DNA of 64,000 nucleotides from assembly GCF_008329605.1 (NCBI RefSeq), contig NZ_NPKO01000002.1, positions 496,001 to 560,000 of the forward strand. Direction: 5' to 3'. This stretch comes from Mycolicibacterium sp. P9-64. Its GTDB lineage: Bacteria > Actinomycetota > Actinomycetes > Mycobacteriales > Mycobacteriaceae. Both the position numbers and the translations under genes were made by a program. Below are positions 9,324-25,744 of the stretch, piece after piece (the stretch's first letter is position 1; the number at the start of each line of letters is the position of its first letter). The notes beneath the pieces are model-generated. The model did no database searches. It had not been told where the DNA came from and saw only the letters and a program-made list of their open reading frames with translations.

Positions 9324-9527
9324 TCGGCCCGAGCGGGCGGCGATAACAGCGTGCGCGTCGCCGCAGCACACATAGGTACGACCGACGATCGGCCCGACCG
9401 CGATCCCCGGGCCCGCTTGGCACACCGGTGTCGGAACGGACACGACGGCAGTTTTCCGGCCCGAGCCAGGCAGGTCGCGGCCGACGGGGGAGGCACATCC
9501 CCACCGGCTCACAGAGAGGCATCACAC

Positions 9528-10598
9528 ATGAACACCGTTCAACAGGCCGTCAAGCGCGGGCACTACTACGAAGAATTCGAACCGGGCCGATCCTTCCGTC
9601 ACCACTGGGGTCGGACGATGACCGATTTCGACGCGGTCTGGTTCAGCAACCTGACCACCCAGCTCAATCCGCTGTACTTCAACGCCGAATACGCCAAGGC
9701 CATGGGACATCCCGGCATGGTCGTACACCCGTTGTGGGTGGCGTGCACGTTCATGGGCCTGGCCGTGGAAGACCTCACCGAACTCGGCGGCCCCTTCCTC
9801 GGCGTCGACGACTTGAAGGTGCACCGCGAGACCTACGCCGGTGACACCATTTACAGCGAGACCGAAGTCCTCGACCGGCGGCCCACCAAGTCCCGGCCCG
9901 GGTGGGGGATCGTGCACTGGAAATGTCGGGCCTTCAACCAACACGACGAACTCGTCATGGATTGCGAGCGACGCAATTTCGTCCGCATCCTCGATCCCGA
10001 CAAGCTTCCGGCGGAAGCCACCGCGCCGACGTCGGGAGCCGGCAACGCCACCGCGGCGAGCATCGAGTCGGTCACGCGCCCACCGCTGACCGAGGCGCAC
10101 GTCCCGCCGTCGCGGGCCAGGACGGCGGACTTCGGATACTTCGAAGACTTCAGCGTCGGTCAAGTCTTGGAGCACCACCGCGGCCGGACACTCACCGAGC
10201 TGGACAACTACCTGCTGACCCTGCTGTCGATGAACACCGCCGCCGGCCACGTCGACGACCAGGCCCTCGGCCAGCAGCCAGAAGGGGTCTTCGTCCAGCG
10301 GCGCCCCATCAACGGCTGGGCGACGGTCTCCATCGCCTTCGGCCTCACCTCAGAAGACATGTCCGAAAACGCCATCGCCGATCTCGGCTATGACAACGTC
10401 AAGATCAAGTCGCCGATGTTTCATGGTGACTCCATCCGGGCGCGCAGCGAGGTGTTGTCGCTGGTCGACGCCGAAGGCAACCCGCACTGCGGCGTGCTGC
10501 GCTACCGCATGACAGCGCAGAAACCGGACGGCACCGTCGTCGTCGAGGCCGAACGCGTCGTGTTGCTCAAGCGGCGGTCATGGCAGGGTCTGCCGTGA
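9528..10598 (+). CDS. Double MaoC-domain enoyl-CoA hydratase, mesaconyl/itaconyl-CoA hydratase-like
   Basis: A 356-residue protein made of two hot-dog MaoC domains (about 10-155 and 198-345), each beginning with a YFEDF/YEEF-type segment. The hydratase motif is recognisable in the first domain as N-P-L-Y-F-N...GHPGMVVH. The arrangement and length match beta-methylmalyl-CoA dehydratase / mesaconyl-CoA hydratase and itaconyl-CoA hydratase. The ATG at 9528 is chosen because homology begins a few residues later; the binding site (AGAGAGG, about 9512) is moderate. Its 3' end overlaps the lyase gene. It probably adds water to an unsaturated dicarboxylyl-CoA made by the upstream transferase. Confidence 0.85.
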   Translation: MNTVQQAVKRGHYYEEFEPGRSFRHHWGRTMTDFDAVWFSNLTTQLNPLYFNAEYAKAMGHPGMVVHPLWVACTFMGLAVEDLTELGGPFLGVDDLKVHRETYAGDTIYSETEVLDRRPTKSRPGWGIVHWKCRAFNQHDELVMDCERRNFVRILDPDKLPAEATAPTSGAGNATAASIESVTRPPLTEAHVPPSRARTADFGYFEDFSVGQVLEHHRGRTLTELDNYLLTLLSMNTAAGHVDDQALGQQPEGVFVQRRPINGWATVSIAFGLTSEDMSENAIADLGYDNVKIKSPMFHGDSIRARSEVLSLVDAEGNPHCGVLRYRMTAQKPDGTVVVEAERVVLLKRRSWQGLP

Positions 10599-11548: not shown

Positions 11549-12586
11549 ATGAAATCGGTCGTCTACACACGCCTGGGCCCCCCGTCGGTCCTCGAACTCG
11601 TCGAGCGCCCACTGCCCGCACCGGGGCCCGGCGAAGTGCGCGTCCGCGTCGCCGTGTCGGGGGTGAACCCCTCGGACGCCAAACGCCGGCAAGCGGGAAT
11701 CTTCAACACCGCCATGCCCTTTCCCGAGGTGACACCCAACCAGGATGGGGCCGGCGTCGTCGATGCTATCGGTGACGGGGTGCACCACCTGTCGGTCGGT
11801 CAACGGGTCTGGGTCTACATGGCCGTCTTCGGTCGTCCCACCGGGACCGCACAGCAGTACACGGTGATCCCCGCGGAGCGCGCCGTGCCGCTACCCGATG
11901 TCGCCTCATTCGACGTCGGCGCCTCACTCGGGGTGCCGGCCATGACCGCCCACCGCGCACTCACGGTTCACGAGGACGGCCCGTCGCGGCTGGGCCCGGG
12001 CGCACTCGACGGGAAGACCGTCCTCGTCGCGGGCGGTGCCGGCGCGGTCGGGCACGCCGCGATCCAGCTGGCCCGTTGGGCCGGGGCCACCGTCATCACC
12101 ACGGTCTCCTCACTGGAGAAGGCGGCGCTCGCGGCGGCTGCCGGTGCACACCACACGGTCAACTACCGATTCGACGGTGCCGCCGAGACCATCCGGGGAA
12201 ACGCCGCCGACGGTGTCGACGTCGTCGTGGAGGTGGGCGTCGTCCGAAACGCTGAACTGCTGTCGGCTGTGGTGGCCGATCGGGCGGTGGTGTCGGTGTA
12301 CGCCAACGACGGCGGCACCGACGCGTCGCTGCCGATCACGCCGAACTGGACTGCGGCCAACGTCCGGTTCCAATTCGTGCTCGTCTACACGATGGGCCAG
12401 ACAGCCCTCGACGCCGCTGCCGAGGACATCACCGCCGCGCTCACCGAGCGGGTGCTGGAGGTGGGACAGGACGCAGGTTTGCCGATCACGCGCTTTGCGC
12501 TGGCGCACACCCCGCAAGCACACGCGGCCGTCGAGGACGGCGTCGTCGGCAAGATCCTCATCGAAGTCGACGACGCGGTCGCCTAA
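11549..12586 (+). CDS. Zinc-independent MDR-family NADPH:quinone/enoyl reductase
   Basis: A 345-residue medium-chain dehydrogenase/reductase of the quinone oxidoreductase branch. The N-terminal GroES-like domain lacks the catalytic zinc ligands of alcohol dehydrogenases, and the Rossmann fold shows VLVAGGAGAVGHAAIQLA (about 154-171), the NADPH-binding glycine motif. Members reduce quinones, enones or enoyl thioesters. It lies 96 bases after the lyase gene on the same strand and probably belongs to the same transcript. It could reduce an alpha,beta-unsaturated intermediate; no specific substrate is visible. Confidence 0.85.
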   Translation: MKSVVYTRLGPPSVLELVERPLPAPGPGEVRVRVAVSGVNPSDAKRRQAGIFNTAMPFPEVTPNQDGAGVVDAIGDGVHHLSVGQRVWVYMAVFGRPTGTAQQYTVIPAERAVPLPDVASFDVGASLGVPAMTAHRALTVHEDGPSRLGPGALDGKTVLVAGGAGAVGHAAIQLARWAGATVITTVSSLEKAALAAAAGAHHTVNYRFDGAAETIRGNAADGVDVVVEVGVVRNAELLSAVVADRAVVSVYANDGGTDASLPITPNWTAANVRFQFVLVYTMGQTALDAAAEDITAALTERVLEVGQDAGLPITRFALAHTPQAHAAVEDGVVGKILIEVDDAVA

Positions 12587-12989
12587 CCTCCCCGCGAAAT
12601 GCGTTGCCTGCCAGGAGGAGTGGGCTCCGCCCGTCAAGTCAGCTTCCAGTGCCAGGTCCGGCGTGAACGACGTCGCCCGACAGTGGCACGGGGCCGGTGT
12701 GAGGGGCCACTGACGTGTTGCTTCTGCTCGACGCGCAGGACGACGGCGCCCTCGAAAGTCAGCCGGAGTCGGCGAGCGGCGCCGCCCTGCGGACGCCTCG
12801 GTCTGTGGTGCCCGCCCACTCGTCCGGAGCCGGCGCAGAGTGCGCCCGGCCGCGGTCTGGCGGCTGCCCTTCTGACCGGTTGGTGCGGCGGGCGCGGACG
12901 GCTCGCGGCCAATCTCGTTCGCCGCGAACGCGGTTAGCGTCTGTCGGCTCGACCCAACGGAGTTGGGCATCCTTGCGCGATCTAGTGGT

Positions 12990-13007
12990 GTACACGCCAG
13001 CGTATAC
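12990..13007 (+). promoter_or_regulatory. TetR-type operator, nitroreductase copy 1
   Basis: GTACACG, four bases, CGTATAC: an imperfect 7-base inverted repeat (one mismatch). It matches the operator in front of the tetR gene at 26365 in half-sites and spacing. Its centre is 48 bases from copy 2. Confidence 0.7.
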
Positions 13008-13037
13008 ATAGCACGGGCGATCCGATACCGTGAGACT

Positions 13038-13055
13038 GTAAACGTATCCGTATAC
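13038..13055 (+). promoter_or_regulatory. TetR-type operator, nitroreductase copy 2
   Basis: GTAAACG, four bases, CGTATAC, ending 8 bases before the nitroreductase ATG. The reverse complement of the site at 26373-26390 has the same outer seven bases on both sides, so the two sites should bind the same protein. Confidence 0.78.
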
Positions 13056-13063
13056 CTAAGGGG

Positions 13064-13780
13064 ATGGCTGTGGACGCGGTGACCGGTGAGCTTGTCCAGG
13101 CGGCGGAAGAACTCATCCGTGGCCGCCGCGCAACCCGGGCGTTTCTCCCCACCCCCGTTCCGGACGGGACCATCCGCGCCGTCTTCAGTTTGGCTGGCGC
13201 CGCGCCGTCGAACTCGAACGCGCAGCCCTGGCGGGCCGAGGTGCTCAGCGGGGCAGCACGCGATGAACTCGCCGCGGCCCTGATCGTCGCCGATGCGGCC
13301 GGGCGGCGGACCGTCGACTTTCCGTACAGCGACGACATCTACTCGGGCGAGCACCATCGCCGGCGAGCGGCATGGGGTGCTGCGATGTACGGCGCTCTCG
13401 GCATCGGGCGCAGCGACGCCGACCTGCTCGCCGAGTACAACACCAGAAGTCTGAATTTCTATGGCGCGCCCCACGTTGCGTTGCTCTACGCCCCCGATTC
13501 TGGCGACCCCCGGCTGACCGCGGACGTGGGAATGTATGCGCAGACGTTGCTGCTGGCGATGGCCGCCTACGGCGTGGCCAGCTGCCCTCAGGCGCAGCTG
13601 AGCTTCTACTCCGACGCCGTGCGTCAGATCCTCGGTGTGACCGACGGGAAGCTGCTCCTGGGCGTCTCGTTCGGCTACGCCGACCCCGACGCCGTGATCA
13701 ACACGATCGTCGTGGGCCGCGAGCCGCTTACGGAAACGACGCGCTTCCACGACGGTATCGGGGGACCGGACCGGGAGTGA
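13064..13780 (+). CDS. Nitroreductase-family oxidoreductase
   Basis: A 238-residue FMN-binding nitroreductase-like protein. RGRRATRAF near residue 20 is the usual N-terminal FMN phosphate contact, GAAPSNSNAQPW (about 45-56) is the hallmark segment, and LLLGVSFGYADPD near the C-terminus is the second FMN region. It would reduce nitro groups, quinones or enones with NAD(P)H. The ATG at 13064 lies just behind two operator copies and has weak ribosome-binding signal (AAGGGG at 13058). It is probably controlled by the TetR encoded at 25745-26365, beyond the defence island, rather than by the GntR. Confidence 0.87.
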   Translation: MAVDAVTGELVQAAEELIRGRRATRAFLPTPVPDGTIRAVFSLAGAAPSNSNAQPWRAEVLSGAARDELAAALIVADAAGRRTVDFPYSDDIYSGEHHRRRAAWGAAMYGALGIGRSDADLLAEYNTRSLNFYGAPHVALLYAPDSGDPRLTADVGMYAQTLLLAMAAYGVASCPQAQLSFYSDAVRQILGVTDGKLLLGVSFGYADPDAVINTIVVGREPLTETTRFHDGIGGPDRE

Positions 13781-13912
13781 GCACGGGAAAGATGTGCTCC
13801 GCGTGTATTCGCCGAGCCCCACCGTGCGTCGACATGCAAGCGACGCCGCTGGCACACCTGATCCACGCGCCCGTCACCGCCCCCACCTTCGGGGCCCGGG
13901 TAGCCGGACGGG

Positions 13913-14170
13913 GTGTCGGCGCACGAGATCGGTCCGGGAGACGCGGGGCTTCACCGAAGCGCCGCAGCCGAGAAGGGCGCCGTACTGGTCGTCCAGATCG
14001 CCGCGGGCGGTGTGGGTTTGAACATTCAAGCGGCGTCAGTGGTCGTGATATGCGAACCACAGCTGAAGCCGCTCGCCGAATGGCGGGCCATCGCTCGCGC
14101 ACACCGTAGGGGACAGCGGGAGTCCGTGGCAGGTGCACCGTCTCCTGTCCGATGAGGGCGTCGCAGCACC
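13913..14170 (+). pseudogene. SNF2-type helicase C-terminal remnant
   Basis: One frame from about 13960 reads through helicase motifs V and VI: QIAAGGVGLNIQAA, then CEPQLKP, and WRAIARAHRRGQ. These are diagnostic for SNF2/superfamily 2 proteins. About 14128 the reading must shift by one base to continue as QVHRLLSDEGV, the usual next segment. No N-terminal helicase half is present and the fragment ends within about 50 residues. It is therefore a broken leftover of a larger helicase gene. Full-length relatives are common in defence islands, and it sits at the left edge of one here. Confidence 0.75.
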
Positions 14171-14204
14171 CGGCGGGACCGGCCGAGCACCAATGACGGT
14201 GCGA

Positions 14205-14603
14205 TCACATCGCACCGATACCGTCCATGATCCGCACCGGTAGCGGTCTGCCAAGTGCGTAGTACATCGCCACGCGATGGTGCCCGTCGACGATGTGCAG
14301 GTCGCCGTTCTCGTCACGCCAGAGTTTGGTTACGTACCCCTCGCGGATGGGCTCGGCGCCGCTGGTGACCGCGTCGATGCTGCTTCGCTTTAGGGTTTCC
14401 TCATTGGCCTGCAGCATCACGCCGACAGGCAGTAACTCGACTGGTAGCTCATTCCACCTTGCCTCAGCCACGCTGCGCGCGCGCTCGACGACGTAGACGT
14501 TTTTCGAGGCGTAGCACATTCCGTACTCTTCAGAGCGCACACGCTCATCCGTTGTCACAGTTGTTGCCTTACTATGGATTTGGCTGCCACCGAAGCGGAC
14601 CAC
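14205..14603 (-). CDS. ParB/Srx-like small protein
   Basis: A 132-residue protein whose C-terminal half contains LHIVDGHHRVAMYYALGR. The DGHHR signature is typical of the ParB N-terminal / sulfiredoxin-like fold, which binds or hydrolyses nucleotides (CTP in ParB) and sometimes acts as a nuclease or kinase. No helix-turn-helix partition domain is present. The start used is a GTG at 14603; an ATG at 14522 (residue 28) is an alternative. It lies 74 bases downstream of the alarmone synthetase on the same strand and is probably its operon partner. The function is unknown; nucleotide handling fits an alarmone neighbour. Confidence 0.65.
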   Translation of the reverse strand: MVRFGGSQIHSKATTVTTDERVRSEEYGMCYASKNVYVVERARSVAEARWNELPVELLPVGVMLQANEETLKRSSIDAVTSGAEPIREGYVTKLWRDENGDLHIVDGHHRVAMYYALGRPLPVRIMDGIGAM

Positions 14604-14677
14604 CTTTCACGGGAGACCGCCATCTCTAGCGCCTCACCGCAGCATCTAGACAAGGCGGGAAGGCTCACCATCGCGTA

Positions 14678-15622
14678 TTAGCCGCCCCAAATGGCTTCAA
14701 GGATGTCCAGTTCATCGGAGGGCAGACGTTCGTCCCAGGCCGCGCGAAGCGTGTGGCGGTCGGCTTCTAGCCGCTCGAAGATGATAACGGCTTCGGGCTG
14801 ATGCACCAGCTGTGAACTATCGCTGTCGCGGTAGCGGTCGAAGATGCCGGCGAGCTTAACCTCATGCTCGTCGGCGAAGGCCTGAAGCCGTGTGTCGTAC
14901 CCAGGGGAGAGATCGCTGGGTAGCGTTTCGGCAATCTCGGACAGGATGAACATGCTGAGCGCGCGGTCATACTTGACGTCGGCGAACCGGTAAAACTGTG
15001 CCTGGGCAGCATTAATCAGTTCATGGACGGGGTATCCGGCGCTGGACACGATGAGCTTCACACGACGTGTCACCTCCTCATCGAAAATCTCCATGAGCAC
15101 AGCAAGACGCAGCAGCGCACGCTGTGTTTCAGGATCAGGCTCGACGCCCGGTTTGTACAGCAGCTTGTGCGACATCTCCGACCACACGTTCTGCGCTGCG
15201 GTTCTGACCTGAATCTCGCACTCGCCACCGACGGTGTCGGCGTCGGCATTCACCCGGATCTGCACGTGGACGCCGCCGTAGCCGATTCGCTCGTGCTCGC
15301 GCAATTCCTCGTTTTTGTTCTCGACCCGCACTGTTTCATAGCGCTCCGACAACAGACTCACAACGGCGTCGATGTTGCTCGGGTCGCTGACGATGACGCG
15401 CACACCGACCTTGTCGGTGACCTGATTCCACGGGTCGGCGTATCCCCGTAGCAGGCATTTGCTGGCGAAGCTGGCAACATCCTTGGCTCGGCCGTTGACC
15501 TGGCAGTCCAGCCCATGCGAGCCCACCAGCGACCGGATCTCTGCCTCGACGCGCTGTGCGACGAGCACGAACTGCGGGCGCTCCTCTTTGAACCGTTGGC
15601 GTGCTTCAGCGATGGCGCTCAT
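14678..15622 (-). CDS. RelA/SpoT-domain alarmone synthetase
   Basis: A 314-residue single-domain (p)ppGpp-synthetase-like protein without HD hydrolase, TGS or ACT domains. Conserved synthetase elements are all present: GRAKDVASFASK (about 44-55), DKVGVRVIV, GYGGVHV, and CEIQVRTAAQNVWSEMSHKL. A helical C-terminal extension of about 110 residues follows. Such stand-alone synthetases include housekeeping small alarmone synthetases and toxic or anti-phage types (toxSAS, CapRel) that alter nucleotides or tRNA. Its ATG overlaps the stop of the NdpA-like gene by 4 bases, so the two are translationally coupled. The genomic setting favours a defence or toxin role over stringent response; no cognate antitoxin is recognised. 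Confidence 0.8.
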   Translation of the reverse strand: MSAIAEARQRFKEERPQFVLVAQRVEAEIRSLVGSHGLDCQVNGRAKDVASFASKCLLRGYADPWNQVTDKVGVRVIVSDPSNIDAVVSLLSERYETVRVENKNEELREHERIGYGGVHVQIRVNADADTVGGECEIQVRTAAQNVWSEMSHKLLYKPGVEPDPETQRALLRLAVLMEIFDEEVTRRVKLIVSSAGYPVHELINAAQAQFYRFADVKYDRALSMFILSEIAETLPSDLSPGYDTRLQAFADEHEVKLAGIFDRYRDSDSSQLVHQPEAVIIFERLEADRHTLRAAWDERLPSDELDILEAIWGG

Positions 15623-16656
15623 CCGCGGCTGTTGAGCTTCTTCAGGTTATCGACGACCTGTAATTCGGTTCGGCCGTCGGCGCGCCCGCTGACGCTTACG
15701 ACATCGTCGGGAGTGTCAGCGGGATAGCTGACCTTGACACCCTGCATGAACTCGTACTGGACCCGGGCCAGTTTGGTCTGACTGGTGTCTTTGACGAAAC
15801 TCCGCGCGACCCCCGCGGTGGTGACCGCCTTCTCGAAGGGAGCGCGGTCGTGCAGGTCGAGGTGGCGGGCAGCGAACGATCGGATGTTGATCTCGGTGGA
15901 GTTTCCCTGCAGCTCGGCGACCAAGGCGGTTTCATAGCGCATCTTGGTTGCCGGATCCGCGACGCGATTGTTGATGAAACTCTCTGCTTCTGTGTGGAAT
16001 TGGCGCGTGGTGATTCTCGGGTCGTCAACCAGTGCGCAGCCGAGGAAAACATCCAGAAAGAAGTCGGCAACTGCGATGCCCCGGGACTGCGGATCGCTGA
16101 TCCAGCCGCGAAGCTTTGGCGGGTCGGCATCACCGACCATGAACACCGACACCTTGAACACGCGGGTGCGGCCAGTGAGGAAGAGATCCTTCATGTATTC
16201 GACCGAGAAGGTGGACCGGCCGTCGATCTCGGTCGTGGCTGCGCGGGCACCCTCCTCCTTCTCCAGTTTCAGGACTGCGAGGAACGGCGCCGCACTCCGG
16301 TAGGTGCCCTCCATGACTACGAGCAGCCCCGGAGACATCGCGCCGGATTGTGCGGCGAACAAGTGCCCGGCCAGGGATGTCGACGCGTCGAGAAGCCCGT
16401 CCTTGGGATCGGCCAATTGTTCTGCAATCAGGATGGGGACGCGGCGCTCGTCGTCGGCGGGCTGGATCGCGTGCTTGGATTTGCTGAGGCTTTCACTGAT
16501 CTTGCGTTCGAAGAAACGTGCGACCTCTGCGTCGTAGGGCGACACGATTTCGCTAAGTTTCGGTCTGACGTTGTCGCGATCGCGGATCGCCTTCGGGATC
16601 TCGTGGATGACCCACCGCGTCACTTTCATGTTGCCCGTGTCCAGTGTCGCCGGCAC
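15619..16656 (-). CDS. NdpA/YejK-like nucleoid-associated protein
   Basis: A 345-residue protein resembling the 37-kDa nucleoid-associated family (NdpA, YejK). The best visible match is GIAVADFFLDVFLGC (about 200-214), which corresponds to the family's VADFFMDFLG core, followed by a helical region rich in charged residues. Family members bind nucleoid DNA, and homologues are often found on plasmids and islands. The start is a GTG at 16656, supported by AAAAGGAGG four bases upstream; an ATG ten codons in has no such site. It is the first gene of a probable three-gene operon with the alarmone synthetase and the ParB-like gene, divergent from the Avs-like gene. A role as phage or DNA-state sensor is inference. 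Confidence 0.65.
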   Translation of the reverse strand: MPATLDTGNMKVTRWVIHEIPKAIRDRDNVRPKLSEIVSPYDAEVARFFERKISESLSKSKHAIQPADDERRVPILIAEQLADPKDGLLDASTSLAGHLFAAQSGAMSPGLLVVMEGTYRSAAPFLAVLKLEKEEGARAATTEIDGRSTFSVEYMKDLFLTGRTRVFKVSVFMVGDADPPKLRGWISDPQSRGIAVADFFLDVFLGCALVDDPRITTRQFHTEAESFINNRVADPATKMRYETALVAELQGNSTEINIRSFAARHLDLHDRAPFEKAVTTAGVARSFVKDTSQTKLARVQYEFMQGVKVSYPADTPDDVVSVSGRADGRTELQVVDNLKKLNSRG

Positions 16657-16939
16657 CCATCCTCCTTTTCGCTGAGTCGATCGCGGCCCGTCGCTGGCCG
16701 TGGTCGTTCATCCCGTGGAGCATTATCGTCAGTCGTGTTGCCTGAAGGAGCATGTTGGCTGAGAAGGCGGCCCGTCGTCTGGGCGAGGTCGGCGGTTTCC
16801 TCGGCATCGTCGGGCTTGAATCAACCTGCGGGCGGCATCTCGACCCGAAGCCGGGTACGACGCCTGTGCTGAGCGGCTCGATTGCGAATGCGCGGCCGGA
16901 GTAGTGCCACCACTTGGGATTTAGCTGTTTAATGACCCC
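16657..16939. other. Divergent control region between NdpA-like and Avs-like genes
   Basis: These 283 bases contain the strong ribosome binding site of the NdpA-like gene at 16661-16669. On the other strand a possible -10 hexamer TTTAAT (about 16928) would place the start of transcription at the GTG of the Avs-like gene. No clear operator palindrome is seen. Confidence 0.45.
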
Positions 16940-19900
16940 GTGGGCGCTGACATCGCACGCGACGCCAGCGAGCCGGAGACCAACCCCGCCATCGCCTGGG
17001 CTGGTGCGCATCCGGGCCGATCGGGCGGACGATCGGGCGCAGCAGGCTATCGCTTCCAGGATCAGTACGTTGCCCTGCACTTGGCCAGGATGCTCATCGG
17101 TGTCGGGGAGCAACCGCTGCGCGAGGTGCTATGGGAGAAAAAGGCACTGCGCCTCAATCGCCACCCAGACATCCTCACACTGATCGTCGATGACGTCGCT
17201 CTCGTTCATTCCGACGGCGCCATTGTTCTCGTTGAGGTCAAGCAGAGCGCCCCGGCAGCCTCATGGACCATCAACGGGCTGTTCCGCGAGGGTGTGCTGC
17301 CCGACTTCTGGGCTCAATGGGCCAGCCTCACTCCGCCTGTGCGGAACCGAACGACCCTGCAATTGGCTTCCGCGCGCCGCGCGGACGCCCTGAACCTGGT
17401 CATCGACAACGCCAAGCGTGCGCGCAATATGACCGAACTGCTCGGCGGTGATGGATCGGCGGCGGTGCACGCGGACACCGCAGCGATCATCGAAAAGCTC
17501 GGTGTTTCCGCCGATTCCGATGCGATCCTGCCTTTTCTGCAACATTTGAGCGTGCACGTCGTTCCCGATGGCAACGAGCTCACGGAGCGGATCGAGCAGT
17601 GCCTTCCTGACCGTGCCGACAGGAGCCGACTGGCGCAGAACATGATCACCCTGGTGGAGCGCAGCAAGAACGCCGACCGAGATGCACGCGCGTCATACAC
17701 CGCGGCGACGCTGGCCCGCGATTTGAGCGCCCTGGGCACGGCGTGCGATGTTGCCGACTTCGGCAGCACTGGCGATGGCCGGCGCGGGGCCGCACGACTG
17801 CTATCGCTGTCGGAATATTTCGTCAACGACATCACGGCGACGTTGACGATCGCCGCGGACAACCCAGACACAACACTGTACGTCCGCCGCGACATCGAGG
17901 ATGACCTCGTGGCGCAGCTTCAGGCTAATCGCGATGCCGCGACGCGCACGATCATCGTCGGACCGGCAGGGCACGGCAAGACCACTCTGTTGTGGGCGCT
18001 GCACAACCGCTTACGCGATGACGGTTTGACGCCCGTTCTGGTGTCGGCTTCCTGGCTGACTGGCAGCACACCGGCGATGTCAGTAGACGACCTGTTGACT
18101 TCGCTGCGCGCGCTCTCGACGCCGGTCCTACTACTTGACACCGCGGATCTGCTGTTACATGACGAAATGCTGCGCTTGGCACTGCTTGCGGGACTAGATG
18201 ATGCCGATGCCGCCCACATCAGCTGGGTGCTCAGTACTCGTCCGGAGGAAGCCACGCTCCTGCCGCTACGGCGCGGCAAAATAGTCACGCTGGAGGTCTA
18301 CCACGTCGAATCGGAGCTGCCAGAAGCCGTGGCGCGGCTGGTCCGACGCTATTGCCCCGAACGCGCACCTGCCGATGCCCATACCCGGATCAGTGCCGCG
18401 GTGGCTCGCGGCCTGCCGGTTGCCGAGGTATGTCTGCGGCCCTTATTACTCAGACTGCTCTTCGACCTGGCTGCACCCGAATTTCCGGTGTTCGCCGAGC
18501 TCGACGTCACGGGCTTGTTCCTGCGGTTCTGGAGTCAGCGAGTTGCCGCCGACCAACGCGCAGGCATAGCAGTCGCACCCGACACCGATCTGTCGCTACG
18601 GGCCGGTGGTGCGGGAGTGGCGCTGCTGGCCGAGGGAAGCCCGACAGCACAGCCCGACGTGCTCGCCGAGTTGATCGACGATGTCCTCGCCAAGTGGGCC
18701 CGGCCGACCGCCACAGGTCCGCCCGGCCCCGAAGCCGACGCTGCGCTGCTGCGCCGTGGGATCTTGCAGCGCCAGGCAACTGAGGTTGGGTTTTTACATC
18801 AGACTCTGTTTGAGTTCGCCGCCGCCAAAGGACTCATTCTCCGAGACGGTGGGCGCAGCACCGCACGATTCCTCACCCACCTGGATACCGATCCAGCCGA
18901 CCTGTTCGCCGGCGCAGTGTTCGAGCAGTATTTGATCCTGTTGGGCCGGCGCCGGTCTGAACACGAGAGGCTCACGGACAGCATCGCAACACTTTTGAGG
19001 TCCCCGCACAGTCCGCTCCGTGGCGTCGGGTACGCGGTGTGGGCCCACTACCCGGCACTCGTCGGCGATGCGACGGTGCGACAGCTGTTGGGCGCGTTCG
19101 AACCCGATGAGTTACGCCGCTTCGCTGATATAGCACCGACTGTGGCGCTAAAGAACCTCGACGACGTCCTGCGGCATGTGCAGCTGCTGTGGTCCTTCGA
19201 GCCCGATCTCGTTCGCGAAACCGACGAGGACCACGAAGCACGTCAACGCCACCAGCGGACGCGGCGGATGATCGCCTTGGAGCTGCTAGAGCGATTCGCG
19301 CGCCGCGATCCCACTGCAGTGGCCGGTGTCGTCAGCGGCCTTGGCTGCGTCGGTGCGCTGTTGGCCTCGGATCTTGCCTATGTGCGATCCCAAACCGTGC
19401 TGACGGACATGATCGGCCACATCGCCCTCGTGGACCCCGCGTCGGCACGGACCTACGCGCTCGAAGTGATCGCGGCAGTGATTAGCGACGGCAGCGGCCG
19501 CGAGACCATTCGCAGGCTGCTGGCACTGCTGGCCCGGCCCGCCGTGTGGAATGAGTTGCGCGACAACGACTTCCTGATCTCGCTCGAATCGCATTTCGCA
19601 AGCCGCAATAGCGACGCACGGGCATTGCGGAGCAGCCTGGGGGCGATCTATGCCAGTGAATGGGGACGCACGATGCGCACCGCCGCAGACGAAGTTCGTG
19701 GGCCGATGTGGTCAACAATCGTCGACCAGGTGTGCAGGAACCTGGAAGACGATGACCAAAGTCCGCTCGCGGGGGCCAAAGCCGTTGGTGTTGCCATCCT
19801 GGCAGGGAGCGGAGACCTCGGGCCATTGCTCACGTCGACCACGGTGCAGCGCCTGCTGACCGTGGTCGGGCCAGGAGCGCCAAGGGAGTTAGCTCGTGGT

Positions 19901-21268
19901 GCGTTTCCACTGATGCTCTCAGGTACGGGACTCGCGGCTGACTTGCTCCGCCACGAACTCAGTGGGCGACTCGCAGGATTGCCGGTATCAAAGAACAATC
20001 CGCCGCCCGGCCCGAAAACTTGGGCGGCCGTTGCGCGAGACAGCATTCTCTCCCAGGATGTTTCCGAAGCGGTGTGCACCGCGATAGTCACCGGTTGCCA
20101 CGTCACCGAGCACCGAGATATGTGGCTCGACCCAGAGGGAATGTTGGCAGTGCTGTCCAAAGCCGCTGTCGGTGGGCATCGCCTGGCCGCAGAGCTGTTA
20201 GAAGAGATCGCCGACCAGCCTGATCAGCTCGACGCACAGGCCCAAGGTGTGCTGCTGGACTTCTGCGGTCCGATAGCGGTGAGCCACCCGCGTCAAGCGG
20301 CCCCCGCAGCGATCGCTCTGGCGTTGAAACTGGGACGAGTCAAGCCTCTGGAGAAGCTCACACGGGTACCCGGCTCGACCGCGGCCCTCTCGGCAGCCCA
20401 CGACGCGATCCAGGCCATGATCGACCGACTGCTCGCTTCCTCCGCAGAAAGGCAGGCGGAGGCGGCGCGGCTGTGGCAGGCCTTGATCACAATGGGCGTG
20501 CTCACCGCGACGACGGGGGATGTCATCGCGGCATACGACGCTACGCCTCATCCGAAGGCGCGCGCGGCGCTGATCAACACCCTCGCAGCGGCGGCCGCGG
20601 ACGGGAACGACCCCGACGGCAGCGCGGTCGCGATGTTCGGCCGGATTCTCGAGCTCGATAAGGGCCTGCGTGTCGTGCACCCGACCGCGTACGGATGGCA
20701 ACAGAGTCCTCAAGTCCGAGAGTTTGCGCGCATGGGGTGGCTACGAGTCGTCGCCACCGATCCAGCTACAACACCGGAATGCTGGCCGACTCTGCGCGGC
20801 TTATTATTTCGGCCGACGTTCTTCGCCAAGGAACAGGTGAACGACATCGCGGGCGTCGGGTACATCTCCCACTTCATCACGGGAGTGGTGAAAAACGGAT
20901 ATACCGACGAGGGCATCGCGGTTCTGATCGAGGCGGCGGCCTGCGTTAGTGGCGGTCCATACGCGGCCAAACAGCAAGCCAACGCCTCCAATAGGTGGTT
21001 GCGTGCGATCGAAGAGATAGTGGCGACGGCGACTTCCGCTCAGATCCAGGCACTGTTGTTAGAGATCGATAAATTTCCTGCAGTTGCAGCACAACTGGTG
21101 ATCAGCACCCTCACCCGCACCGCATTCGTACGACACCGCGACGACCTGAACGATCTTCTCAACCACCCCCTGCCCGCGAAGGCGCGCAACGTGCTGCAGC
21201 GGCACTTGCAACGCAAAGCGCGCGAACTGGGCACTAGAGCATGGCCCGATATTCTTGACCCGGCCTGA
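16940..21268 (+). CDS. Avs-like STAND NTPase with N-terminal nuclease-like domain
   Basis: A 1442-residue three-part protein. The N-terminus (about 35-215) begins with GYRFQDQY and carries an acidic residue D92 before VLVEVK (E99, K101), the pattern of a PD-(D/E)XK nuclease of the Cap4/DUF4297 type. The centre is a STAND-type NTPase: Walker A GPAGHGKTT at 341-349, Walker B VLLLD ending at D400, and a sensor-like LSTRPEE near 431-437. The remaining 800 residues are alpha-helical and repeat-like. This plan matches Avs immune proteins, which recognise phage proteins through C-terminal repeats, oligomerise and degrade DNA. The GTG start is probably leaderless. The C-terminus does not obviously match a named Avs type by eye, so the target is unknown. 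Confidence 0.8.
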   Translation: MGADIARDASEPETNPAIAWAGAHPGRSGGRSGAAGYRFQDQYVALHLARMLIGVGEQPLREVLWEKKALRLNRHPDILTLIVDDVALVHSDGAIVLVEVKQSAPAASWTINGLFREGVLPDFWAQWASLTPPVRNRTTLQLASARRADALNLVIDNAKRARNMTELLGGDGSAAVHADTAAIIEKLGVSADSDAILPFLQHLSVHVVPDGNELTERIEQCLPDRADRSRLAQNMITLVERSKNADRDARASYTAATLARDLSALGTACDVADFGSTGDGRRGAARLLSLSEYFVNDITATLTIAADNPDTTLYVRRDIEDDLVAQLQANRDAATRTIIVGPAGHGKTTLLWALHNRLRDDGLTPVLVSASWLTGSTPAMSVDDLLTSLRALSTPVLLLDTADLLLHDEMLRLALLAGLDDADAAHISWVLSTRPEEATLLPLRRGKIVTLEVYHVESELPEAVARLVRRYCPERAPADAHTRISAAVARGLPVAEVCLRPLLLRLLFDLAAPEFPVFAELDVTGLFLRFWSQRVAADQRAGIAVAPDTDLSLRAGGAGVALLAEGSPTAQPDVLAELIDDVLAKWARPTATGPPGPEADAALLRRGILQRQATEVGFLHQTLFEFAAAKGLILRDGGRSTARFLTHLDTDPADLFAGAVFEQYLILLGRRRSEHERLTDSIATLLRSPHSPLRGVGYAVWAHYPALVGDATVRQLLGAFEPDELRRFADIAPTVALKNLDDVLRHVQLLWSFEPDLVRETDEDHEARQRHQRTRRMIALELLERFARRDPTAVAGVVSGLGCVGALLASDLAYVRSQTVLTDMIGHIALVDPASARTYALEVIAAVISDGSGRETIRRLLALLARPAVWNELRDNDFLISLESHFASRNSDARALRSSLGAIYASEWGRTMRTAADEVRGPMWSTIVDQVCRNLEDDDQSPLAGAKAVGVAILAGSGDLGPLLTSTTVQRLLTVVGPGAPRELARGAFPLMLSGTGLAADLLRHELSGRLAGLPVSKNNPPPGPKTWAAVARDSILSQDVSEAVCTAIVTGCHVTEHRDMWLDPEGMLAVLSKAAVGGHRLAAELLEEIADQPDQLDAQAQGVLLDFCGPIAVSHPRQAAPAAIALALKLGRVKPLEKLTRVPGSTAALSAAHDAIQAMIDRLLASSAERQAEAARLWQALITMGVLTATTGDVIAAYDATPHPKARAALINTLAAAAADGNDPDGSAVAMFGRILELDKGLRVVHPTAYGWQQSPQVREFARMGWLRVVATDPATTPECWPTLRGLLFRPTFFAKEQVNDIAGVGYISHFITGVVKNGYTDEGIAVLIEAAACVSGGPYAAKQQANASNRWLRAIEEIVATATSAQIQALLLEIDKFPAVAAQLVISTLTRTAFVRHRDDLNDLLNHPLPAKARNVLQRHLQRKARELGTRAWPDILDPA

Positions 21269-21543
21269 CGGACGCTCCGGCAGCGCTACCTGGCCGCATG
21301 GCCGACGCGACGCCGCGGTCCCACCGCCGCGTCCAAGCGCCGTGGAATCATTCAATGCCGGAGCCGCCGGCCGGGTCTCGGCGATCTTTGGTCACAAGAG
21401 CTGAAGGCAGTTGGAGCTTTTAAGACCCGCTGACACCCGTAACTGCCCGGGAACATCGGCGGGTCGTGCCGCCAGCGGGAACGTAGACTGCGTCGAGTGC
21501 CAGCCGCCACCGAGGCGGCGCTGGACGAAATGGGGGACAACCC

Positions 21544-22974
21544 TTGCATCCGGATTGGCTAGTCCTCGCGCTCTCCGTCACCGCGGTGATCGTGGCCTAC
21601 GTCGCCGGAGAGAGACGGAAGTCGCTTCTCAGACGGTTCCGCCGTGGACTGCAGGTTGCCGCCGAACGTCGACGCGCCGACAAGCTACGTGGTTACGACA
21701 AGAAGCTCGACCACCTGAGGCCTCCGGAGGTCAGCGGGCACGACTTCGACCGTCGGCTTCCGAGCCCAAGTGTGGAGGACCCGTATTTCTACATCACTCA
21801 GCTGCGACTCCAGAACTTCCGGTGCTTCTCGGATTCGCAGCTGGACTTTCGTTTCCCCGGTGAGAGTAATCGCCGACTTGAGTACCCGAACGTCAACCTT
21901 CTTCTCGGCAACAACGGATCCGGGAAGTCGAGCGTGCTTCGGGCGGTCGCGATCGTCGCGCTCGGCCAGATCCTCAGCAGCTCGGGGTTCCTGCCCTATC
22001 GCCTCGTACGGCAGGGCGCCGACCGCGCGCGCATCACCGCGGCGTTCGCGTCCGGACATCCGAACGGCGCGGACGCCCTTGTCGGCGAGGTTCGAATCGA
22101 CCGACTCGGATCCGGCACGCTGGAGCGCGCCGAACCGACTTCCACCGGCTTCTGGCGGGGGATCTTCGAGGACCAGACACCACAGTTCCTCGTCGTCGCC
22201 TACGGCGCGAACCGACGGATGGCGCAGTCGACAAAGGACATTTCACTCGACGGCGGATCGCAGGCGTTTCGCTTCAACCGGGTGCGCGGACTGTTCAACG
22301 ACGGGGTCGCACTGAGCCCGCTCGGCGACTGGCTGCCGTCCGCGATCAAACGCCGACCGGACGAGGTCGAGGAGATGCTTAGTGCCCTGCTGCCGGAGGG
22401 GACGCGACTGACCCGTAAAACCGAGGACGAGCAACCAGTGTTCCGACGAAAGGGTGTCGAGGTCCCCCTCCGCGCGCTCTCCGACGGAATGCAGTCGTAC
22501 ATCGGTTGGCTCGGCGACCTTCTGCGTCAGTTAGACCTGGTTGCGGGCCACCGAGAACTCCGCGAGGTTGGGGGGATTGTCATGGTCGACGAGATCGACC
22601 TCTTGCTGCACCCATCCTGGCAACGCGAAGTGGTGCCCGCTGTCAGTGCCATGTTCCCGAAGATCCAATTCATCTTCACCACGCACAGCCCCATCGTCAC
22701 GGGCACGCTGGAGTCGGGGAACATCACCGTGGCCAACGAGGACCCCGACTCAGGGGTGTCGACACTACGAACAATCGACGCCGAGGTGCGCGGCCTCAGC
22801 GCCGAGCAGGTGCTACTCAGTTCGTACTTCGAGCTTCCGTCAACGCGCGCGCAGGGCGTCACGGAGTCGCTGAGCTCGCTCGCTCGACATGCAGTCGAAG
22901 GCGACGCCGCCGCCCGCCGCAAGTATCTACAAGCCCTCGTTGAGGGTTGGGGTTCCGAGGAAGCTCCGCGGTGA
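21544..22974 (+). CDS. ptuA: Septu-like ATPase PtuA with N-terminal membrane helix
   Basis: A 476-residue SMC/ABC-like ATPase. LRLQNFRCF and Walker A LLGNNGSGKSS (about 120-130) open the ATPase, LSDGMQS (312-318) is the ABC signature equivalent, IVMVDEID (345-352) is Walker B, and TTHSP (379-383) is the switch histidine. This is the OLD/PtuA-type set. Unusually, residues 3-20 form a hydrophobic segment followed by many arginines, predicting a membrane anchor with the ATPase in the cytoplasm. Translation starts at a TTG (21544) after GGGGGAC. Its stop overlaps the GTG of the HNH nuclease gene, the standard Septu arrangement. PtuA and PtuB form an anti-phage complex that cuts DNA when nucleotide pools fall. 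Confidence 0.85.
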   Translation: MHPDWLVLALSVTAVIVAYVAGERRKSLLRRFRRGLQVAAERRRADKLRGYDKKLDHLRPPEVSGHDFDRRLPSPSVEDPYFYITQLRLQNFRCFSDSQLDFRFPGESNRRLEYPNVNLLLGNNGSGKSSVLRAVAIVALGQILSSSGFLPYRLVRQGADRARITAAFASGHPNGADALVGEVRIDRLGSGTLERAEPTSTGFWRGIFEDQTPQFLVVAYGANRRMAQSTKDISLDGGSQAFRFNRVRGLFNDGVALSPLGDWLPSAIKRRPDEVEEMLSALLPEGTRLTRKTEDEQPVFRRKGVEVPLRALSDGMQSYIGWLGDLLRQLDLVAGHRELREVGGIVMVDEIDLLLHPSWQREVVPAVSAMFPKIQFIFTTHSPIVTGTLESGNITVANEDPDSGVSTLRTIDAEVRGLSAEQVLLSSYFELPSTRAQGVTESLSSLARHAVEGDAAARRKYLQALVEGWGSEEAPR

Positions 22975-23831
22975 TCCGCGTCGAGCAGGCCACTGAGGAG
23001 CTGCTTCGCAATACCGACGTGAAGCATGCGAACTGGCTTACGCTGGCGGCGACTCGGACGATTGTCAACGAGACGGCCGGATGCCACGTCGACAGTGACA
23101 TCTGGCGCAAGATCAAGCCATTGTTGTCCCGGCTCCAATTGGGTAAGTGCGGGTACTGCGAGCGCTACCTCAGCACGGCGGGCAACGAACTTGCCGTCGA
23201 CCACTTCCGGCCGAAGCGACGCGTGGACGCGTGGCCGAGTCCCATCGCCGGGGCCACCGATGAGGGCGGCGAAAACTCGCACGGATATTTCCGGATCGCA
23301 TTCGCGCTACACAACTACGTAGCCGCCTGCGACTCATGCAACAGCCGGAACAAGAGGAACTACTTCCCAACCGCGGCCGCACGCCGGTTCGGAACGCGCT
23401 CCGCGGACGAATTGTGGGGCGAACAGCCGTATCTCATCAACCCTGCCGACCCACGCGAAGACGACCCCACCAGCCTGATCGAGTGGAGCGGGATATGGCC
23501 GCAGGCCGCCCACCGAGGCGGCCGACAGCGACTTCGGGCTCTCGCGACGATCGAAGTACTCGGATTGGCTCGCGACGAACTGCTGGTCGAGCGCGCACGT
23601 GTGATCCGCGAGGTATACAACACCTTCCATGGCCGCGCCCCCGGCAGGCAGGAAGACCACCGGCTCGCATCACTCGACATGATCTGCCGCGACGATAGTC
23701 CGCACGCGACGTGTGCACGGACGTTCCGCCGCGCGTGTGAAGAAGAGCCCGACCGCGCATTGGAACACTTCGAGGAGGCGATGGAGCTACTCGAGAGCGT
23801 CGAAAAGAGCCGTCGCCGCGGAGGTCCCTGA
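22971..23831 (+). CDS. ptuB: Septu-like HNH endonuclease PtuB
   Basis: A 286-residue HNH nuclease. C60-G-Y-C63 and C120-D-S-C123 would bind the structural zinc; the catalytic region is AVDHFRPK (about 75-82) with NSRNKRNYF (125 onward). This spacing is that of PtuB, the effector of Septu, and of related HNH proteins coupled to OLD-type ATPases. The GTG at 22971 overlaps the ptuA stop (GTGA); an upstream in-frame ATG at 22947 would lie inside ptuA and is less likely. The gene is at the upper end of PtuB length, with a helical acidic tail. It ends 80 bases before the convergent ApeA-like gene. Confidence 0.85.
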   Translation: MIRVEQATEELLRNTDVKHANWLTLAATRTIVNETAGCHVDSDIWRKIKPLLSRLQLGKCGYCERYLSTAGNELAVDHFRPKRRVDAWPSPIAGATDEGGENSHGYFRIAFALHNYVAACDSCNSRNKRNYFPTAAARRFGTRSADELWGEQPYLINPADPREDDPTSLIEWSGIWPQAAHRGGRQRLRALATIEVLGLARDELLVERARVIREVYNTFHGRAPGRQEDHRLASLDMICRDDSPHATCARTFRRACEEEPDRALEHFEEAMELLESVEKSRRRGGP

Positions 23832-23911
23832 CGCCGAGCGCGTCCAATCCGGAGGCTGGCTATAGCTCTATACCTGCGTGGTCCCGAACTGCGCACACCC
23901 AGCAGAATGGT

Positions 23912-25456
23912 TCATGAATTCGTACTGGAAGCTGCGTCTTGAAGTGCGTGGCGAAATTGGCGGGCGCGATGACCCCACACGCCGTCGTCGTCTGCCAGGC
24001 GTTGTTGGGTGTCAGTATCCAGGCCGAGTTCCGCGAGAAGCACAAGCAGCAAGAGAGCTCTCGTCACCGACATCAGATGGAAAAGAGCGTCTTCTGGAAT
24101 CTTCTTCAAGTCGTCGGCATTCACGTGGCCCACGGCATTGCGCGCAGTGCGCAACCACGATGCCCAGGTCTCGACATCTGTCAGGAGCAACTTCACAGCC
24201 GTTGGGTCCGCCTTCGTCGTGGCCAGCTCGACGTAACGCAGATGCAGGCCCGGTCGGTTATCTCCCACTCTGTTAGATACCCATGAGCGATGGTCGCGCG
24301 AGCTTAACCCCGCCAACAGGCGACTGACCCTGTCCTGCAACGATTTATCGACATCGGCATCTTCAAGTGCCTGGAGAACCTGTTGCCGATCACGCTCGTT
24401 GCATCCTCGAGTAACCGTTCGTATCAGTTGTTTGATGGCGGCGTGTTCGTCGGGAGCGAGGTCGGTGCTTTTCGGACACAGAGCTGCATGGAATCCCTCA
24501 GCGGCGGAAGCGACGTCAAACAGCTGGTTCAGGTAGTAGCCGCCCCGGTAGTAGTCAACACCCAGGACCAGGTCGAGGGACAGCCCGAGCGATTCGCGCA
24601 GGGCAAACCACTTTTCCAGGACCTCTGTGAAGGCATCGCCCGCAAGGGGAAAGATCACCTCGTGGGGGTCAAACTCGCGGATCGCACGGGGCGTGTCGTC
24701 TGAGGTGGTGTAGTACAAGGCTACCTTCGCCGGCGGACCGTCGCTCGCATCGTCGATCCAGAGGGTGCGGGACGTGATGGCGGCCGGGTGCCGAGTCGCA
24801 ACCGTGACGAGATCGCGCACGCCCGTCCACGGCGCTTGAAAAGCATCCCATGTTTGAGGTGTCGTCGAAGTTGCTCGAAGCGCCAATGTTTCGACGATTG
24901 AATAGCTGCGCGAGATCGCGTCGATGGTGGGCTGCCCGTTAAAAGGATGATGCCAGTCGAGACTGAACTTCCAATGCGCGGAGTCGGTCAAGTCGGCTTC
25001 TAGCGAATCAACCCGGTGGGCTTCCATCCGTACCTCCACCGATGAATCTCGCTCGGGAAAGGGGACGATTGAAATGCCGCGCCGGGTCGCCCAGGCTGTT
25101 AAGCCTGTGATGGTCACTTCCCCGCTATCAAATGCCGCGTCTGAGCCGCTATCCAAGTGAACACCTACTAGCACAACGCGGGTTCGGAGGACTTGGACGC
25201 GAGTGACTTCCTGCCCGACGGTCAGCTTGCTACCACCGGATAGCCAGCAATCGAGAAGAGTGACTGACCTACCTGCGGCCGCACCCCAAATCACCGGTGC
25301 TGTGGGTACCGGTCCGACCGAGTAGTCGTCCTTCACAAGCGATTCTGTCAATTGGAGGAGCAACGGCTTGGAAGTGTCGATCTCTAGGACCCCACCGACC
25401 GCCAGCTCGGGTGTCGTCGGCAACCACCATCGGCCGATTAACCGCACTGGCTCCAT
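23912..25456 (-). CDS. ApeA-like HEPN-domain anti-phage protein
   Basis: A 514-residue protein. The N-terminal half, starting PVRLIGRWWLP, resembles the ApeA N-terminal domain, rich in beta strands. The C-terminal half is a helical HEPN domain with the RNase signature R439-N-A-V-G-H444. HEPN proteins of this layout (Apea-HEPN) protect against phages, probably by cleaving RNA after infection. The ATG at 25456 is chosen because homology starts directly after it; the longer frame upstream lies in a decayed nuclease fragment. The gene is alone, convergent with ptuB. Its base composition looks lower in GC than the flanking catabolic genes, in line with acquisition by transfer. Confidence 0.78.
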   Translation of the reverse strand: MEPVRLIGRWWLPTTPELAVGGVLEIDTSKPLLLQLTESLVKDDYSVGPVPTAPVIWGAAAGRSVTLLDCWLSGGSKLTVGQEVTRVQVLRTRVVLVGVHLDSGSDAAFDSGEVTITGLTAWATRRGISIVPFPERDSSVEVRMEAHRVDSLEADLTDSAHWKFSLDWHHPFNGQPTIDAISRSYSIVETLALRATSTTPQTWDAFQAPWTGVRDLVTVATRHPAAITSRTLWIDDASDGPPAKVALYYTTSDDTPRAIREFDPHEVIFPLAGDAFTEVLEKWFALRESLGLSLDLVLGVDYYRGGYYLNQLFDVASAAEGFHAALCPKSTDLAPDEHAAIKQLIRTVTRGCNERDRQQVLQALEDADVDKSLQDRVSRLLAGLSSRDHRSWVSNRVGDNRPGLHLRYVELATTKADPTAVKLLLTDVETWASWLRTARNAVGHVNADDLKKIPEDALFHLMSVTRALLLLVLLAELGLDTDTQQRLADDDGVWGHRARQFRHALQDAASSTNS

Positions 25457-25538
25457 GCCGTCTAGCTTGCCACAAGGGACGGGCGGCCATCGCTCGATAA
25501 TGTGTCGGCACTCCCCGCTCTTGTCAGGTGAGTTTCCT

Positions 25539-25744
25539 TCAGCAGGCCGTTGCGTCGCGAGGATCAATCGGTGTGACGAAACACCGAGATCTGATGGCAC
25601 ACAAGCGAGTATCGTCACGGCACTGGATGACGCCGGAGGCCCTGAACTCGTCGTCGAACTTAGTGCGAGCCTGCTCGACCCACTTAACATCTGGTTTGCG
25701 TTGCCAGTCGCGGCATTCGATGAATACCGCCGCCGCGGCTGTCG
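25539..25744 (-). pseudogene. Restriction-endonuclease-like fragment
   Basis: On the minus strand one frame reads AVFIECRDW, then KPDVKWVEQARTKFDDEF. This resembles the core of PD-(D/E)XK restriction endonucleases, where a hydrophobic strand with E-C-(K/R) is followed by DVKWIEEL. The frame has no plausible start, overlaps the end of the tetR gene and stops at 25539 after a further 35 unrelated residues. It lies directly upstream of the ApeA-like gene on the same strand. It is most likely a remnant of an older defence gene. Confidence 0.5.

Follow-up and report, generated by a model that had tools for sequence, protein, structure and literature searches.

The 64,000-nucleotide stretch of Mycolicibacterium sp. 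P9-64 analysed here, referred to as the window, encodes an NdpA/YejK-type protein and, overlapping its end, a stand-alone alarmone synthetase of the RelA/SpoT type, two genes whose coupling is repeated in other bacterial genomes, on plasmids and on viral contigs. Sequence comparison identifies this pair, and not the trio completed by a neighbouring ParB/Srx-like gene, as the unit. The explanation we favour, tentatively and at a little short of an even chance, is that the pair serves in abortive infection: the NdpA-like protein would recognise DNA changed by infection and set the synthetase free, and the nucleotide made by the enzyme would raise the alarm. This mechanism is favoured because the coupling is fixed, the active site is whole and effector-type genes neighbour some of the pairs.

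A coupled pair of NdpA and synthetase genes

In total 41 NdpA-synthetase pairs were collected after repeat fetches of loci already present had been removed, 38 of them distinct (L135, L099 and L117 are near-copies) and 19 on viral contigs; the phyla represented are Actinomycetota, Pseudomonadota, Bacillota and Armatimonadota. In 40 of the 41 pairs the two genes can be joined at -30 to +40 nucleotides (nt), and in 19 they can share a 4-nt overlap, the lengths being computed with the nearest in-frame start codon. Gene order and coupling are kept down to about 20-25% identity, and thus the pairing goes beyond chance. Co-occurrence, whose rarity would count against the original prediction that these genes form one system, is therefore borne out for NdpA and the synthetase. 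Indeed, when genome contigs were searched with NdpA, the synthetase lay directly downstream in nine of the ten loci recovered. The sole exception is an acidobacterial NdpA fragment at a contig start (L012, 1-717, +), in which no synthetase was matched and which was dropped from the counts. In a loose first look at genomes, in which few candidates were scored per genome and absence counts are non-exhaustive, the NdpA type of the window was present in 2 of 61 relatives, each time paired with a synthetase, in 3 of 394 genomes of the class and in 4 of 397 genomes of the order, with the synthetase present in all three and all four, respectively. A synthetase-led scan of the same 394 class genomes found some RelA/SpoT homologue (RSH) or small alarmone synthetase (SAS) match at 1e-20 in 100 of them; only three matches extended to the C-terminal end of the profile, and these occur exactly in the three NdpA genomes.

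The pair extends to mobile DNA. Five plasmid records hold NdpA (Streptomyces, Klebsiella, Ochrobactrum and two gonococcal records of chromosome size), and all four that were read are paired. On viral contigs, NdpA lies just upstream in 19 of 80 synthetase loci (the best 80 of 90 confirmed); viral contigs searched with the patterns of NdpA itself gave no confirmed match, the viral NdpA genes having been found via the synthetase. Two loci have a synthetase in two pieces. In gonococcal L053 (8001-10047, +), which by eye is near prophage-like genes, NdpA is open and the synthetase is split into overlapping open reading frames (ORFs; 9038-9412 and 9409-10047); the locus was kept in the pair count and, because of the split, left out of the tree described below. 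L092 was left out of both the tree and the flank count. Four further loci (L054, L055, L058 and L060) have stand-alone synthetases without NdpA, directly behind an ORF of roughly 350 amino acids (aa) that by eye resembles a phage integrase.

The window synthetase matches Pfam RelA_SpoT (1.5e-15) and, as originally proposed, retains its catalytic motifs and has no hydrolase domain. By Pfam, fold and alignment it is a stand-alone SAS, with a SYNTH domain and whole motifs. The core residues R45, K47, D70, G73, Y115, H119, E136 and Q138 are conserved; across the pairs, R45, K47, S51, K55, D70 and G73 are kept in all 40 rows that cover these positions, H119, E136, Q138, H152, Y156 and K157 in all 41 synthetases and Y115 in 40 of the 41. 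The structure model (predicted local distance difference test, pLDDT, 89) has an all-helical C-terminal half, with no strands past residue 141, and its nearest folds are SAS enzymes of Streptococcus, Bacillus and Staphylococcus (2be3 at 1.0e-9, 5dec, 6fgk and 6ewz), CapRel (7ztb, 2.4e-6) ranking lower. The NCBIfam YjbM equivalog gives 45.2 bits against a cut-off of 320 bits, so that by curated score the protein is not RelQ/YjbM. All seven synthetases that were scanned match the PADLOC candidate PDC-S33 (3.2e-12 to 5.3e-9).

The original prediction had named grouping with the housekeeping RelP/RelQ enzymes as a point that would tell against it. A tree computed quickly from 136 synthetase domains has a branch, with a support of 40, that sets off the 38 NdpA-linked rows together with L085; this last row is identical to L084, and its pair is cut by a contig end. 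The YjbM score and the position of the NdpA-linked rows, apart from the other stand-alone synthetases sampled, answer the point only in part, the branch being weakly supported and the tree holding no verified RelP/RelQ rows. Support is higher for an actinobacterial-type subset of 16 rows, including L009 and L006 (87), for a proteobacterial and viral subset of 23 rows (100) and for the grouping of the window synthetase with that of Curtobacterium L003 (99). The Curtobacterium locus also encodes, 2 kb from its pair, a different RelA_SpoT protein of 449 aa (13818-15167, +), adjoined by a Dsr1/SIR2-type protein (15251-18820, -). This second synthetase, treated as 'other' in the tree and left out of the flank count, forms with L024, L026 and L133 a separate group next to the NdpA-linked rows. 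The genome of the window itself holds a second such synthetase, a 593-aa protein with DUF429 fused to RelA_SpoT (L048, contig C30, 8714-10495, -; L037 in the tree), which lacks a link to NdpA and lies elsewhere in the tree.

The partner protein belongs to Pfam NA37 (E 6.7e-9; 36.0 bits against a gathering cut-off of 24.6). Its AlphaFold model (pLDDT 85, 41 sequences), built on the 336-aa form P0001, significantly matches a single PDB fold, that of Escherichia coli YejK (9be2, E 2.8e-9), and another fold was rejected on that ground. The YejK equivalog PRK00378 of NCBIfam did not match the window protein and gave the member from E. coli SCU-102 20.7 of 341 bits, below the cut-off; no PADLOC model matched either protein. 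Its family and its likeness in fold to YejK lead to the prediction that the NdpA-like protein acts as a sensor or brake.

Exchangeable third genes and the defence setting

A gene for a SLATT protein with two transmembrane (2TM) segments adjoins 10 of the 41 pairs (8 of the 38 distinct ones) compared with none of 99 synthetase loci without NdpA (Fisher 2e-6, or 2e-5 with distinct pairs only), and the viral loci on their own give 4 of 17 versus 0 of 61 (p 0.0017). It lies upstream of the pair in Klebsiella L050, in E. coli L134, L135 and L136 and in viral L090, L097, L099 and L110, downstream in viral L100 and convergently in L161, a genome of the window's order. The nine proteins scanned by NCBIfam all score above cut-off as SLATT_1 or SLATT_4, and the tenth (L099) has a profile score equal to that of L097; the model used to search all loci was built from seven of the ten. 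The presence of different SLATT families in different positions suggests repeated recruitment. On the SCU-102 SLATT protein, PADLOC gives 'Effector, 2TM' (4e-6), which we take to be a label of cyclic-oligonucleotide-based antiphage signalling systems (CBASS). SLATT proteins were reportedly treated with nucleotide-centric systems by Burroughs in 2015. PMC7159879 carries the published prediction that SLATT is a nucleotide-responsive pore-forming effector.

Other third genes were found downstream of the pair. A three-segment membrane protein is encoded in L040 and L041 (two genomes of one genus) and on Streptomyces plasmid L052, with 37-40% identity and an interruption in L052, while a second small membrane-protein family (62% identity) lies directly downstream in L004 and L005, both actinobacterial metagenome-assembled genomes (MAGs). 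In the Bacillota MAG L009 a caspase-like gene (12084-13721, +; Peptidase_C14 6e-19) follows the pair after 95 bases; a reverse transcriptase (RT)-nitrilase-type gene is located upstream of that pair (6545-9814, +). None of these SLATT, membrane or caspase partners had been foreseen in the original prediction. Based on hydropathy alone, a small neighbour with at least two membrane segments occurs at 13 of 40 pairs with full flanks versus 8 of 88 other synthetases (p 0.0017), and adding the SLATT proteins found by profile, the caspase and the L052 gene brings pairs with an effector-type partner to 19 of 40. The window is not among them. Six-frame hydropathy over 900 bases of each flank, as a search for a hidden membrane effector, gave one weak segment, in a helicase remnant, and with five of the membrane proteins as tblastn queries the window yielded nothing beyond a 31-aa match at 34906 (E 0.65).

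What follows the pair in the window is the ParB/Srx-like gene, which the original prediction had made part of a three-gene unit, as antidote or auxiliary. Its label derives from the source names of homologues (P0146 and P0169), and the protein matches no model of Pfam or NCBIfam and, at a significant level, no PDB structure. The family comprises 36 homologue clusters, and a DGxHR motif is invariant in 22 rows. One homologue, P0177, has a longer N-terminus without a Pfam match; the extra segment presumably resembles phage virion proteins. A phage origin of the gene was rejected, as none of 50,697 phage records gave a match. It could be argued that an obligatory role is signalled by 7 of the 36 clusters, whose longest contig has exactly the length found for clusters of NdpA or of the synthetase in close mycobacterial relatives, an indirect sign of linkage. 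Such a three-part system is, however, highly improbable. Of ten close NdpA clusters, only five show such a contig match; phmmer found no ParB/Srx-like protein in L002-L012, the remaining pair loci lying outside that search; and the gene is present in 2 of 248 genomes of the genus, in one of which (G032) it is on a contig without NdpA or synthetase, near a Fic gene. On these grounds it was rejected as a core component, and neither the trio as a unit nor the antidote role found support. Its distribution marks the gene as a facultative mycobacterial neighbour of the pair.

The defence-gene setting claimed for the window stands, with Septu and ApeA genes present there and strong matches beside other pairs. 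Ten large neighbours at nine other pair loci yielded eight strong PADLOC matches (Dsr1, DruE, HKD+Snf2, RT-nitrilase, type IIG, type II restriction, type I methyltransferase and PsyrT), one weak match and one without a match. Among 5426 E. coli genomes, three were seen to carry the trio of SLATT, NdpA and synthetase genes, a count that copies under about 65% DNA identity would escape. Carriers of this operon include SCU-102, isolated from a healthy carrier, and KFu023, a river isolate. L134 is in an island with a relaxase, an integrase and tRNA-Thr, and L136 adjoins an integrase and tRNA-Thr and has PsyrT-type helicase and DprA genes; integrase and tRNA-Thr are thus in sight at two of the three loci. 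From its distribution the pair appears sporadic and mobile.

Pairs on plasmids, integrative elements and viral contigs are also what would be seen if the two genes formed a regulatory module of mobile elements, not a defence, in which NdpA would tune transcription of the element and the alarmone would slow the host. An analogy is offered by NdpA2 of the integrative and conjugative element PAPI-1, which relieves silencing of transfer genes and acts with TprA in transfer (PMC8565334). We consider this explanation improbable, as pairs lie also beside Septu, ApeA, Dsr1 and Druantia-type genes, and the exchange of SLATT, caspase and membrane genes would fit immune effectors better than transfer control.

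In the window, the ORFs bear out the predicted arrangement of three same-strand genes, all on the minus strand, with an ATGA overlap and the third gene 74 bases further on (Table 1). The same genes had been placed between Avs-, Septu- and ApeA-like genes, which does not hold: all the defence genes (Avs-like, PtuA, PtuB and ApeA) are on one side, at 16940-25690, and the other flank has the helicase remnant, a nitroreductase gene and a dehydrogenase gene. The remnant is likely a decayed helicase gene, and both promoters, that of the pair and that of the Avs-like gene, are likely to lie in the divergent stretch between them. The matches listed for 17 window proteins in Pfam and PADLOC include no CBASS cyclase (CD-NTase).

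Table 1. The pair and its surroundings in the window
Feature	Position	Strand	Details
Helicase C-terminal domain remnant	13913-14155	+	Helicase_C 3.9e-6; island edge, adjoins ParB-like gene
ParB/Srx-like small protein	14205..14603	-	132 aa; 74 bases beyond synthetase; facultative third gene of mycobacterial versions
Stand-alone RelA/SpoT-type synthetase	14678..15622	-	314 aa; predicted signal- or poison-making enzyme
ATGA overlap of NdpA-like stop and synthetase start	15619..15622	-	4 nt; from the sequence
NdpA/YejK-type gene	15619..16656	-	345 aa; GTG start, AGGAGG just upstream; first gene of pair; predicted sensor/gate
Divergent intergenic stretch, pair versus Avs-like gene	16657..16939	.	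283 bases; from coordinates
Avs-like STAND NTPase	16940..21268	+	1442 aa; nSTAND_NTPase5 6.8e-6 (below cut-off); LmuA 7.9e-4
Septu PtuA	21544..22974	+	PADLOC 1.5e-114
Septu PtuB	22947..23831	+	3.1e-58
ApeA-type HEPN protein	23912..25690	-	ApeA_NTD1 8.2e-50; HEPN_Apea 5.6e-19; PDC-S58 5e-31

Proposed signalling and its strongest rival

In the abortive-infection mechanism, the NdpA-like protein would keep watch on DNA and either restrain the synthetase or turn it on. DNA altered by infection would switch the enzyme on, and its product, which we envisage as a diffusible pyrophosphorylated nucleotide, would act as messenger or poison, with the infected cell arrested or killed. Where the pair has a gene for a SLATT protein, a different small membrane protein or a caspase next to it, the encoded protein would be the effector turned on by the signal. 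At pairs without such a gene, the window included, the alarmone itself may act, or in the window possibly the ParB/Srx-like protein. The SLATT, other membrane and caspase third genes point to a design of signal plus effector. A bolder extension, which we entertain as possible and doubtful, is that the pair is the core of a widespread class of alarmone-signalled immunity, comprising a nucleoid-type sensor, a dedicated synthetase, a pyrophosphorylated second messenger and plug-in effectors (SLATT pores, small membrane proteins and caspase), an analogue of CBASS in which a RelA/SpoT enzyme would replace the cyclase.

It should be emphasized that several observations weigh against the abortive-infection mechanism. 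About half of the pairs have no evident effector: 27 of the 40 full-flank pairs lack a neighbour with at least two membrane segments by hydropathy and, although this number includes loci with SLATT by profile (L097, L099, L100 and L136), the caspase locus L009 and the interrupted membrane gene of L052, 21 of 40, the window among them, have no SLATT, membrane or caspase partner by hydropathy and profile together. An effector gene is therefore not obligatory. The p-values for SLATT ignore relatedness, and seven of the ten cases belong to one clade (L050, L134, L135, L090, L097, L099 and L110). As the SLATT model was built from the matches themselves, distant SLATT families in control loci could be missed; moreover, flanks of at least 400 bases on each side are present at 88 of the 99 control loci, and the controls include L085, the contig-cut pair. 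The ten neighbours scanned with PADLOC were picked by hand, a random control being absent, the support of the branch joining the NdpA-linked synthetases is no higher than 40, and the sensor role proposed for NdpA derives from its family alone.

The strongest rival, on balance unlikely, is a toxin-antitoxin pair akin to the toxic small alarmone synthetases (toxSAS). The synthetase would here be a poison, acting by pyrophosphorylation of tRNA CCA ends or by ATP-draining synthesis of ppApp, NdpA would combine the functions of antitoxin and phage sensor, and the third genes would be passengers. toxSAS enzymes were reportedly surveyed by Jimmy in 2020. Their antitoxins are small, unlike NdpA, which has about 340 aa. 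Such a pair would account for the coupled two-gene order with the enzyme second, for the match of all scanned synthetases to PDC-S33 over the catalytic part and for the 21 of 40 pairs without a membrane or caspase partner; furthermore, the poisonous action of toxSAS enzymes is well established (PMC11559606 and PMC11782079). The antitoxin domain of CapRel is its C-terminal pseudo-zinc-finger (PMC9712102), and the modelled window synthetase lacks a domain of that type, having no strands after residue 141. The folds nearest to the model, SAS1/SAS2 with CapRel lower, also speak against a toxSAS-like enzyme, without settling the substrate, and the repeated association with SLATT has no place in a toxin-antitoxin scheme.

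Stand-alone alarmone synthetases are known so far as housekeeping enzymes or direct toxins. If the abortive-infection mechanism is true, alarmones would become immune second messengers and the little-understood NdpA family would gain a role in sensing infection. As E. coli has natural copies that include a SLATT gene, this hypothesis is directly testable in laboratory strains.

Relation to known systems

The claim that no named system contains these genes holds for the NdpA-synthetase pair within what was searched. None was found in the Pfam, NCBIfam and PADLOC models scanned, and in the literature search NdpA stands beside an alarmone synthetase in no title or abstract start among the matches listed, older surveys of SLATT and toxSAS being outside its scope. 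The pair would be a variant within alarmone-synthetase defence, and categorically new only if the messenger model is true.

With the housekeeping enzymes SAS1/RelQ (YjbM) and SAS2/RelP (YwaC) the window synthetase shares the catalytic domain and motifs. It differs in about 100 additional helical C-terminal residues and in that full-length matches to it, among the 394 class genomes, occur only beside NdpA. The single-gene PADLOC candidate PDC-S33 matches all the scanned synthetases; the matches, however, are confined to the catalytic part, about 32-193 of 349. Similarly, the NdpA-like protein shares the NA37 family and the fold of the nucleoid-associated protein YejK/NdpA, but is only 16% identical to 9be2 in the fold alignment. 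CapRel and toxSAS resemble the pair in having a stand-alone SYNTH enzyme that lacks a hydrolase and in occurring in defence settings and prophages, and CapRel in the fold match to 7ztb. In contrast, the modelled window enzyme lacks the C-terminal pseudo-zinc-finger antitoxin domain of CapRel, the partner is a roughly 340-aa NdpA/YejK-type protein, and some lineages add SLATT, membrane or caspase genes.

A possible likeness to CBASS lies in a predicted nucleotide-making enzyme that has, at some pairs and not at that of the window, exchangeable effector-type genes beside it; one scanned SLATT protein matches the 'Effector, 2TM' models of PADLOC. The enzyme of the pair, however, is a pyrophosphotransferase of the RelA/SpoT type and not a CD-NTase, CBASS has no counterpart of NdpA, and the messenger of the pair is putative.

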